A stretch of 64,000 nucleotides of DNA from NCBI RefSeq assembly GCF_000971255.1, contig NZ_BBMC01000003.1, forward strand, positions 186,001 to 250,000, given 5' to 3'. Position numbers and translations under genes: made by a program. The notes beneath the pieces are model-generated. The model searched no databases, was not told the DNA's origin, and saw only the letters and a list, made by a program, of their open reading frames with translations. Origin of the DNA: Demequina rhizosphaerae (GTDB lineage Bacteria > Actinomycetota > Actinomycetes > Actinomycetales > Demequinaceae). Below, piece after piece: positions 61,886 through 64,000 of this stretch (positions are counted from its first letter, which is position 1; every line of letters begins with the position of its first letter).

Positions 61886-63011
61886 CCTTTTCGAGGCCGA
61901 AGCGACCACCACGACGTCGCTTGACCTGCGACGGCTGCAGCGCCAGAAGCGGCGCGCCGCGCGCCGCCGGCTCACGCTCGTCGTGACCGCGGTCGCGCTC
62001 GTCGTGTTCGCGCTCGGCGCGTCCGTGACCTGGAACTTCCTCCAGGGCTTCGAGACGTCGACCAACGAGGTCGCCGACTACGAGGGCCCCGGCCAGGGCA
62101 ACGTGCAGGTGGTCATCGAGAGCGGCGCGACCGGCACGGACATCGCCGCAACCCTGTACGACGCGGGCGTCATCGCGTCGACGCAGTCGTTCATCATCGC
62201 GGCGAACGACAACCCCGACTCGGCGTCGATCACGCCGGGCTACTACTTCATGCACAAGGAGATGAAGGCGGAGTACGCCCTCGCCGCGCTGCTCGACCCG
62301 TCGAACCGCGACGTGCGCTCCATCACCATCCCCGAGGGCAAGTCGCTCGACTACTACTACCAGTCGATCGCGAACCTCACCGGCACCACCAAGGACGAGG
62401 TGATCGAGGCCGCGGAGAACACCGACGCTCTCGGCCTGCCGGAGGAGGCGAACGGCAACCTCGAGGGCTGGCTGTTCCCGTCGACGTACGAGTTCAACCC
62501 CGGCGTCACCCCGCAGGAGGTGATGTCGAAGATGATCCAGCAGACCATCACCGTGCTCGACAAGTACGACGTCGCCGTCGAGGACCGCGAGCGCGTGCTC
62601 ACCGTCGCGTCGCTGGTCGAGCGCGAGGCGAAGCTCGACGAGGACCGCGCGCAGATTGCGTCGGTGATCTACAACCGCCTCGACATCGACATGAAGCTCG
62701 AGCTCGACTCGACGGTCAAGTACCTCACGCAGACCGAGGGCGTGTGGACGTCCGACGACGAGCGCGCGACGGACTCCCCGTACAACACGTACATGTACGC
62801 GGGCCTCCCGCCTGGCCCGATCTCGGGACCGGGCGAGGCATCGATCAAGGCCGCGGTCAAGCCTGCCGACACGAACTACCTGTTCTTCGTGACGGTCAAC
62901 CTCGACACGGGCGAGACCAAGTACGCGTCGGAGTACGCGGACCACCTGGCGAACGTCCAGGAGCTGCAGGAGTGGGTCGCCGCCAACCAGAGCGACGACT
63001 CCGACTCCTGA
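61878..63011 (+). CDS. mltG: Endolytic murein transglycosylase MltG
   Basis: MltG cleaves nascent glycan strands at the membrane and so sets their length. The 377-residue protein has a cytoplasmic basic segment (RRLQRQKRRAARRRLTL), one membrane helix (VVTAVALVVFALGASVTWNF), a LysM-like subdomain (VVIESGATGTDIAATLYDAG) and the YceG catalytic domain with ASLVEREAKLDEDRAQIASV, including the catalytic Glu, and LELDSTVKYL. ATG 61878 is used; ATG 61875 adds one Met. It precedes aroE with 1 bp between. Confidence 0.94.
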   Translation: MTDLFEAEATTTTSLDLRRLQRQKRRAARRRLTLVVTAVALVVFALGASVTWNFLQGFETSTNEVADYEGPGQGNVQVVIESGATGTDIAATLYDAGVIASTQSFIIAANDNPDSASITPGYYFMHKEMKAEYALAALLDPSNRDVRSITIPEGKSLDYYYQSIANLTGTTKDEVIEAAENTDALGLPEEANGNLEGWLFPSTYEFNPGVTPQEVMSKMIQQTITVLDKYDVAVEDRERVLTVASLVEREAKLDEDRAQIASVIYNRLDIDMKLELDSTVKYLTQTEGVWTSDDERATDSPYNTYMYAGLPPGPISGPGEASIKAAVKPADTNYLFFVTVNLDTGETKYASEYADHLANVQELQEWVAANQSDDSDS

Positions 63012-63012
63012 C

Positions 63013-63855
63013 GTGACGGCGACCTCCGGCCCGCGTCGCGCGGGCGTGCTCGGGCACCCGATCGCGCACTCGCTGTCCCCGGTGCTGCACCGGTCGGCGT
63101 ACCGCGCGCTCGGGCTGGACTGGGAGTACGACGCGTACGACGTCGAGGCCGGGGGGCTGTCCGGCTTCCTCGACGGGATGGACGATGCGTGGGCCGGGCT
63201 GTCGCTGACGATGCCTCTCAAGGTGGAGGCGGTCCCGCTCATGGACTTCGTCGAGTCGATGGCGAAGCTGGTCGGCGCGGTCAACACCGTGCTCGTGCAG
63301 GACATCGGCGGCTCACGGCAGCTCGTGGGCGCCAACACCGACGTGTGGGGCATCCAGGCCGCGTTCCGCGAGGCCGGCGTGACCGACGCATCGTCCGGGC
63401 TCATCATCGGCGGGGGAGCGACCGCGACCTCCGCGATGGCGGCGCTCGGCGCGCTCGGCGTCACCACGCCCTACGTGGCCGTGCGGTCCCGCGGACGGGC
63501 CGGCGGGCTGCTCCGCGCGGCCACCAAGATGGGCGTTCACCCGAAATTCATCTCCCTCGAGGAGATCCCTTCCGTCATGCCCTTCGTGGAGGCCGTCGTG
63601 TCCACGGTGCCGGCCGAGGCGGGGGAGCGGATCGCATCGTCACTTTCCGGAATTCGCGAGGGTTCCGTGCTTCTCGATGTCGTTTATGAACCCCTTGTCA
63701 CACCATTGAGTATCCGATTTGTAGCATTTGACGGAATTGCGATCGGCGGCGAGCGAATGCTGCTCCATCAGGCCGCTGAGCAGGTACGACTCATGACCGG
63801 GCGCACTGCGCCTATTACGGAAATGGGAAATTCCCTGCGCGACGTGTTGAATTAG
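63013..63855 (+). CDS. aroE: Shikimate dehydrogenase
   Basis: AroE reduces 3-dehydroshikimate to shikimate with NADPH. The 280-residue protein has GVLGHPIAHSLSPVLHRSAY, LSLTMPLKVEAVPLMD (catalytic Lys), VGANTDVWGIQAAF (catalytic Asp) and a dinucleotide-binding IIGGGATATSAMAALG. The GTG start follows the mltG stop by one base. From about 63636 to the stop, codon choice changes: GAA, ATT, TTT, GTA, ACA, CCA and TAT appear in a gene otherwise dominated by G/C-ending codons. By count, 63661-63840 is 55% G+C. The reading frame stays intact. Confidence 0.93.
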   Translation: MTATSGPRRAGVLGHPIAHSLSPVLHRSAYRALGLDWEYDAYDVEAGGLSGFLDGMDDAWAGLSLTMPLKVEAVPLMDFVESMAKLVGAVNTVLVQDIGGSRQLVGANTDVWGIQAAFREAGVTDASSGLIIGGGATATSAMAALGALGVTTPYVAVRSRGRAGGLLRAATKMGVHPKFISLEEIPSVMPFVEAVVSTVPAEAGERIASSLSGIREGSVLLDVVYEPLVTPLSIRFVAFDGIAIGGERMLLHQAAEQVRLMTGRTAPITEMGNSLRDVLN

Positions 63856-63889
63856 TAACACTTCAGCCCCGAGCCATCAATGCCGATGG

Positions 63890-63895
63890 TAGGTT
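63890..63895 (+). promoter_or_regulatory. -10 element (TAGGTT) for the pilB-like gene
   Basis: TANNNT hexamer 37 bp upstream of the ATG, in the AT-richer stretch after aroE. The predicted leader is about 30 nt and includes GAGGGGG. Confidence 0.45.
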
Positions 63896-63931
63896 CACGA
63901 TCGTTCATCGAGCGCGTGAGGGGGCGCCTAC

Positions 63932-64000
63932 ATGAAGCAGCTGGGGACCATCCTGTTGGAGGATGGTGCGCTCACCGAGGAGATGCTCGCCGAGGGCATC
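63932..64000 (+). CDS. PilB/GspE-like secretion ATPase, 3'-truncated by the window edge
   Basis: Only 23 codons are inside the window. They read MKQLGTILLEDGALTEEMLA, then EGI, which matches the N-terminal MshEN-type domain of type IV pilus/type II secretion ATPases (typically MxxLGxLLLExGxLTxxxLxxAL). GAGGGGG lies 7 nt before the ATG. In many actinobacteria a type IV pilus operon (pilB, pilT, pilC, prepilins) follows aroE, which supports the call. Catalytic motifs lie beyond the window. Confidence 0.75.
   Translation, partial: MKQLGTILLEDGALTEEMLAEGI

Follow-up and report, generated by a model that had tools for sequence, protein, structure and literature searches.

An old composition dip at the 3′ end of aroE and an apparent, separate replacement of the adjoining type IV pilus cassette in Demequina rhizosphaerae

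Results

Organization and composition of the aroE-pilB junction

At the right end of the window, the 64,000-nucleotide stretch of Demequina rhizosphaerae DNA analyzed here, the forward strand carries aroE, encoding shikimate dehydrogenase, followed by the first bases of pilB. The 5′ part of aroE (63013-63633; GC3 of 0.95) encodes the Pfam domain Shikimate_dh_N (12-93), and the gene ends in a low-G+C tail (63634-63855; GC3 of 0.53) in which SDH_C is still encoded; the AroE protein is intact through this C-terminal Pfam domain (residues 246-271). A spacer of 76 bases (63856-63931; ∼59% G+C) separates aroE from pilB, in agreement with the sequence-only reading, which had placed a pilB-like gene close behind aroE. 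pilB, whose product has T2SSE and MshEN domains, occupies 63932-64000 and ends at 65590, past the window. Beyond the window end (L004, L128), pilB is followed by genes for a pilT-like ATPase, a pilC-like T2SSF protein, pilin-like proteins with N-methylation motifs, a prepilin peptidase, PilM, and two more proteins, and then by the presumed aroC and aroB. These genes were named from Pfam, except for aroC, aroB, and the last gene of the cluster, presumably pilO, which we named from position. The pilT-like ATPase gene (L004, 3626-5380) has a long Pro/Ala-rich N-terminal region with a G+C content of up to ∼83% that is strongly variable between species, and one pilin-like gene (68718-69167; L004, 6718-7167) shows 53% identity between D. 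rhizosphaerae and the sister genome G006, compared to 100% for PilM.

We quantified the composition of this region. As reported by the sequence-only reading, G+C content is low at 63661-63840, where it is 55.0% by count, compared to 72.4% in aroE (63013-63855) before the last 70 codons. The next 90 bases are also low, at ∼55 to 56% rather than the ∼54% claimed, and the 270 bases from 63661 have 55.2% G+C. The window averages 72.2% G+C, and 0.12% of its 180-base segments have a value equal to or below that of 63661-63840. The last 70 codons of aroE have a G+C content of 54.3% and a GC3 of 0.543, compared to 0.943 before them, and the best GC3 change point falls after codon 207, at 63634 (LLR of 31.3; GC3 from 0.95 to 0.53). 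Among 245 automatically picked genes (444 kb, ∼15% of the 3.03-Mb genome; mean 3′ difference of +0.018, standard deviation [SD] of 0.070), the drop in aroE (−0.40) was the largest, the runner-up being −0.23. Stretches of 70 codons with a GC3 of 0.56 or less also occur in 16 other picked genes of the 245; in 12 of the 16, the stretch begins in the first 50 codons, where the picked start may be too early. Farther along, G+C content climbs inside pilB and is lower again at 65.5 kb (∼55%) and 68.6 kb (53.5%).

Distribution of the dip and of the aroE-pilB adjacency

aroE was matched in 44 of 44 Demequina genomes, with AroE identities to D. rhizosphaerae of 90 to 91% in G006 and 85% in D. maris. In 43 of the 44, pilB starts 19 to 254 bases after the aroE stop codon, which argues that the pilus genes were not recently inserted. 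The exception, G036, has no pilB in the 1.5 kb after aroE, and a spacer-like CTCAAG-N5-GCCGATG lies ∼1.7 kb on; by eye, the interval from aroE to this motif (L030) resembles an opposite-strand gene of the HNH-endonuclease type. pilM was likewise matched in 43 of 44 genomes, the sole miss being G005, an 85% complete assembly. The adjacency is also present in L161, from another genus of Demequinaceae (aroE GC3 of 0.86, and 0.74 in the last 70 codons), and in genomes of other families (L073, L075, and L080, that is, 3 of 18). A further genome, L078, was scored as having an adjacent pilB in the GC3-tail comparison on the basis of a partial 50% match that is doubtful, so that true adjacency in other families stays at these three. 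This distribution indicates that the adjacency is old.

A strong dip (last 70 codons minus rest, −0.40 to −0.43) was found only in D. rhizosphaerae, G006, and D. maris, with change points at codons 205 to 207. Weaker or shorter dips (−0.24 to −0.15) occur in D. phytophila, where the change point is at codon 204, and in G033, G027, G001, and D. sediminis. GC3 of the last 70 codons was below that of the rest in 34 of 42 Demequina aroE sequences (mean, −0.081; the set of 42, here and in the conservation analysis, leaves out the partial L069, the odd-tailed L063, and the duplicate L011), compared to 4 of 14 outside genomes without an adjacent pilB (mean, +0.003; Mann-Whitney U test, P = 0.0015, uncorrected for kinship). 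For the last 30 codons the counts were 31 of 42 and 8 of 14 (P = 0.022, again without correction for kinship). The four outside genomes scored with an adjacent pilB, one of them on the doubtful match, had a mean last-70-codon difference of −0.007, an almost absent drop that counts against the composition-shoulder reading given in the Discussion.

Evolution of the aroE tail

An AT-rich tail could overlap a selected regulatory element such as a binding site, an RNA, or an antisense gene, and the tail is located directly upstream of a conserved promoter-like site and contains an unusually conserved codon, Leu 260, which is CTC in 32 of 42 sequences. However, synonymous conservation across the 42 aroE sequences is lowest of the gene at codons 201 to 280, and fourfold sites identical between D. 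rhizosphaerae and G006 number 23 of 38 in the tail versus 107 of 140 in the upstream part. No Rfam match was obtained in 63000-64000 at E values up to 5, by which we ruled out a known RNA in the tail, and no sigma-70 promoter was found; one terminator-like match lies at 63657, inside aroE, with 0.3 (SD, 0.7) expected. A conserved element overlapping the tail was rejected, since synonymous conservation is not raised there, and we consider selected regulatory overlap quite improbable as the source of the dip. The suggestion of overlapping regulatory DNA in the sequence-only reading thus finds no support in the coding tail, whose synonymous sites are less conserved than those of the rest of aroE, but it does find support in the 76-base spacer with its conserved promoter-like site.

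Separate trees of codons 1 to 205 and of the remaining codons, an approach that the same reading had put forward, agree in part: both group D. rhizosphaerae with G006 and D. maris, and they conflict in the placement of D. phytophila. Support for the three-genome group was weak in the 5′ part (82/86 with 22 rows and 55/76 with 13 rows) and strong in the tail, and adding AroC and AroB raised it to 99/99. The stem branch of the clade is 0.36 in the tail versus 0.031 in the 5′ part, a difference of approximately tenfold. The tail tree joins D. phytophila to the D. rhizosphaerae clade (97/98), which is rejected by the 5′ data (AU test, P = 0.007), and a grouping of D. phytophila with D. silvatica was not clearly rejected by the tail (P = 0.077). 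Because the tree program flagged the composition of the D. rhizosphaerae clade, the conflict over D. phytophila hints at an exchange of aroE tails rather than proving it, with composition bias as the alternative source.

A single import of the tail into the ancestor of D. rhizosphaerae, G006, and D. maris would account for several of these features. In this scenario, the segment from codon ∼205 to the stop codon, perhaps with the spacer, was acquired by a homologous exchange of ∼0.3 kb from an unsampled Demequina donor of lower G+C content. The sharp change point common to the three genomes, the approximately tenfold stem acceleration confined to the tail, and the 5′ versus 3′ conflict over D. 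phytophila all fit such an event, as does the mean 3′/5′ ratio of amino acid distances, which is 2.13 for pairs with one clade member and 1.58 for pairs without any. However, no donor is seen: outside the clade, no Demequina aroE has a last-70-codon GC3 below 0.65, and the clade still sits beside D. phytophila and D. silvatica in the tail tree. The best relatives of the tail are all Demequina (G006, 91%; D. phytophila, 69%; D. silvatica, 60%; D. maris was outside that sample), and outside this genus no closer relative was found among 297 genomes of the order. Neither plasmid nor phage sequences matched the tail at E values up to 0.01, and together with the search of the 297 genomes this led us to reject a mobile donor. 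The milder dips elsewhere in Demequina also speak against a one-time import, as does tail GC3, which shows no return to high values. Of the polarized third-position changes between A/T and G/C, those in the tail comprised 6 gains of GC and 5 gains of AT, and all 9 in the 5′ part were gains of AT; an excess of tail changes toward AT was not significant (Fisher test, P = 0.074). The balance in the tail, based on 11 changes, suggests that the tail is near an equilibrium of its own (∼0.59) and is not drifting back to 0.95. Overall, we regard a one-time tail import as somewhat unlikely.

Apparent replacement of the pilus cassette

We compared the pilus clusters of D. rhizosphaerae and 12 other genomes, 13 of the 44, in which aroE is followed by pilB and aroC lies 12.5 to 14.1 kb after the aroE start (pilC was missed by the gene picker). 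In 400-base steps, nucleotide identity to D. maris is 0.83 to 0.91 at 63.0 to 64.2 kb, 0.63 to 0.86 at 64.2 to 67.4 kb, and generally lower beyond, and identity to D. sediminis rises across ∼64.2 kb from a range of 0.65 to 0.80 to one of 0.74 to 0.93. Over 64.2 to 67.4 kb, D. maris is 0.85 to 0.91 identical to D. phytophila and D. silvatica, with one variable step at 0.68 to 0.70, so that D. rhizosphaerae and G006 look like the changed genomes. The left edge lies inside pilB: sites that separate D. maris from D. sediminis switch best at 64162 (D. sediminis-like at 18% before and 70% after), and stricter clade-diagnostic sites place the edge at ∼64.13 to 64.36 kb. The right edge is sharp and falls in the spacer before aroC at ∼76.9 kb, where identity to D. 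maris is 0.44 (76.8 kb), 0.89 (76.9 kb), and 0.98 (77.0 kb). Both edges border on conserved sequence that the two cassette types have in common. Attachment-site repeats, another idea of the sequence-only reading and an expected mark of an integrative element or genomic island, found no support, as 63.60 to 64.45 kb and 76.60 to 77.30 kb share no 12-mer, direct or inverted.

At the protein level, identities to D. maris are 85% for AroE, 98% for AroC, and 95% for AroB in the flanks; PilM has 44% identity to D. maris and 87% to D. sediminis, and the product of the gene after pilM has 27% identity to D. maris. Ten cassette ORFs were compared: D. maris matches six (27 to 80%) and has no match for four, D. 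sediminis matches all ten (45 to 93%), and D. sediminis is the closer of the two in nine. The exception is a pilin-like ORF, with 66% identity to D. maris over half its length and 57% to D. sediminis over all of it. Across the 43 genomes with a match, the genome itself included, PilM identity to D. rhizosphaerae ranges from 39 to 100%.

For the 13 genomes, the trees of flanks and cassette are in strong conflict. D. rhizosphaerae, G006, D. sediminis, D. mangrovi, G011, and G020 are here termed type A. The flank tree (AroE 5′ part, AroC, and AroB) rejects a type-A clade (AU test, P = 7e-35), and the cassette tree (late part of PilB, peptidase, and PilM) rejects the grouping of D. rhizosphaerae, G006, and D. 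maris (AU test, P = 5e-5), with support of 87/89 for the six-genome type-A clade. The placement of D. sediminis conflicts among the flank genes, so the flanks may recombine too. D. iriomotensis has a PilM identity of 45%, yet the cassette tree puts it on the side of type A, on a long branch; its aroE-aroC distance of ∼14.1 kb resembles those in type A (13.7 to 14.0 kb) more than those in the others (12.5 to 12.9 kb).

Taken together, these data indicate that a pilus cassette of ∼12.7 kb (∼64162-76900, past the window end) has evidently been replaced in D. rhizosphaerae and G006 through homologous recombination with a D. sediminis/D. mangrovi-type allele; we infer the direction and timing of the swap. 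The imported pilus cluster of the sequence-only reading therefore exists, and aroE is its left neighbor, but its left edge at ∼64.16 kb in pilB is ∼0.5 kb downstream of the composition change that had been proposed as the edge. Between 63613 and a point ∼200 bases into pilB, the dip included, every diagnostic site except the one at 63840 is of the recipient type, and type-A D. mangrovi, G011, and G020 lack the dip. D. maris has the dip together with a different pilus cluster, which led us to reject an import edge at the dip and means that import of the cluster did not cause it; the original proposal is left with very little probability.

Promoter-like sites and a WhiG-family sigma factor

The aroE-pilB spacer contains a flagellar/WhiG-type promoter-like site, P1 (63862-63889, forward strand), which reads TTCA-N16-GCCGATGG. 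GCCGAT is present in 32 of 43 Demequina aroE-pilB spacers, compared to an expectation of 1.3 by mononucleotide shuffling. The D. rhizosphaerae cluster has seven forward-strand copies of GCCGAT(A/G) in 15.5 kb, three of them outside long ORFs, namely, before pilB (P1), pilT (P2; 65618), and pilM (P3; 74120). Because the assigned ORF starts follow the pilT and pilM sites by 8 and 11 bases, respectively, these two genes may in fact begin further downstream. P2 reads TTAA-N15-GCCGATAG, a good fit to a TAAA-like −35 and a GCCGATAA-like −10 box ∼15 to 16 bases apart, and is the sole TWAA-N14-16-GCCGATR in the genome (0 in the backwards control); the −35 boxes of P1 and P3 are weaker. All three fit the pattern T[TA][CGA]A-N15/16-GCCGAT[AG], which has six matches in 888,000 strand-bases.

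We devised a strict and a loose pattern with the sites already in view; shuffled sequences matched in no more than 2 of 13 genomes. A −35/−10-like pair was found before pilB in 10 of 13 (strict) or 11 of 13 (loose) genomes, and before pilT in 7 of 13 (strict) or 4 of 13 (loose), related words being visible in others. Before pilM, the loose pattern TTGA-N16-NYCGAT was found in 13 of 13 genomes, with both cassette types represented, and the strict pattern in 10 of 13. CTCAAG-N5/6-GCCGATR, a motif seen in other Demequina that might mark a regulon, had 132 matches across the 44 genomes, compared to 56 for the backwards control. By eye, CTCAAGTGCGTGCCGATA (L090, 1501-1518, reverse strand), identical in 15 of the 44, lies upstream of an apparent divIVA in D. 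rhizosphaerae, and words similar to it precede pilB in other species.

A sigma factor of the WhiG/FliA family (TIGR02479) scored above the curated cutoff in 44 of 44 Demequina genomes. The D. rhizosphaerae gene (L127, 10247-10990, reverse strand) has neighbors read as xerC, dprA, rpsB, and tsf, and the best solved relative of its product is the sigma factor of 6pfj/6pfv (202 bits), compared to 145 bits for FliA; we take 6pfj to be the S. venezuelae WhiG-RsiG complex. Flagellin was matched in 13 of 44 genomes, leaving 31 without a match, and no match was found in the D. rhizosphaerae genome. Weaker FliA-type matches (∼155 to 174 bits) occur in a number of genomes, in several of them close to a flagellin match. 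Together, these putative sites and the presence of the sigma gene in all 44 genomes suggest swappable pilus cassettes that would be read by one sigma factor.

Discussion

The dip at the end of aroE is unusual but old, and the cassette swap and the adjoining promoter-like code are the more interesting finds. We think it probable that the dip is a long-lived, vertically inherited composition shoulder and that a separate, later cassette swap affected the pilB-to-aroC stretch. The dip would have been present in the common ancestor of D. rhizosphaerae, G006, and D. maris, with milder forms elsewhere in Demequina; the tail looks functional, and its synonymous sites appear to evolve freely. As its cause, we infer that the strong genomic preference for G+C-rich codons was lost locally at the point where aroE gives way to the pilus promoter region, a process to which minor interspecies exchanges of aroE tails may have contributed. 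The resident pilus cluster from ∼64.16 to ∼76.90 kb would later have given way, in the common ancestor of D. rhizosphaerae and G006, to an allele of the D. sediminis/D. mangrovi type. The spacer upstream of pilB, which carries the WhiG-type promoter-like site, was apparently retained from the resident and would now drive the incoming genes, if the predicted sites act as promoters and the WhiG-family protein is the sigma factor that reads them.

A broader reading, which we offer tentatively as possible rather than probable, is that type IV pilus machines are exchanged almost entire in Demequina, as plug-in cassettes flanked by aroE and aroC. The same WhiG-type promoter code would be kept in every cassette, with the first promoter in the retained flank, so that one housekeeping-linked sigma factor could run any incoming pilus; the AT-rich aroE tail would then be an exchange-prone shoulder.

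Surface-structure loci such as those for O antigen, capsule, and pilin change by allelic replacement between conserved flanks. The Demequina locus resembles them in having a divergent cassette between conserved housekeeping genes and in the apparent use of homologous recombination. Unlike in pilin-gene replacement, nearly the whole pilus cluster, from the interior of pilB to the last gene before aroC, seems to have been exchanged. With regard to its control, the locus is like Actinoplanes in that a WhiG-like sigma class would read pilus genes, a proposal that for Demequina is sequence based; unlike Actinoplanes, which has flagellated zoospores, D. rhizosphaerae has no flagellin match. In Rubrobacter radiotolerans (PMC8325347), the pilus cluster of this unicellular actinobacterium has several flagellar-type sites (−35 TAAA, −10 GCCGATAA) that coincide with mapped start sites, together with a WhiG-family sigma factor and a known anti-sigma factor, RsiG. 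Demequina is similar in having flagellar-type sites within the pilus cluster along with a WhiG-family sigma factor. It differs from Rubrobacter in that its sites, known from sequence alone where Rubrobacter has mapped starts, are located before pilB, pilT, and pilM and are found again in divergent cassettes. Among the matches listed for searches on pilus genes with aroE/aroC, Demequina type IV pili, pilus cluster exchange, and actinobacterial pilus clusters, no title concerned an aroE-aroC pilus locus. The main text of PMC3244431 contains neither aroE, shikimate, nor chorismate, and the listed papers mentioning both WhiG and type IV pili include none on Demequina by title.

At this locus a composition anomaly and a true recombination edge are only half a kilobase apart, a warning against taking G+C steps as import edges. 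It is also a locus where nearly complete pilus gene clusters appear to pass between species while promoter-like sites recur. If the sites function as proposed, Demequina, where flagellin went unmatched in 31 of 44 genomes, would join Rubrobacter and Actinoplanes, for which WhiG-type control of type IV pili has been proposed.
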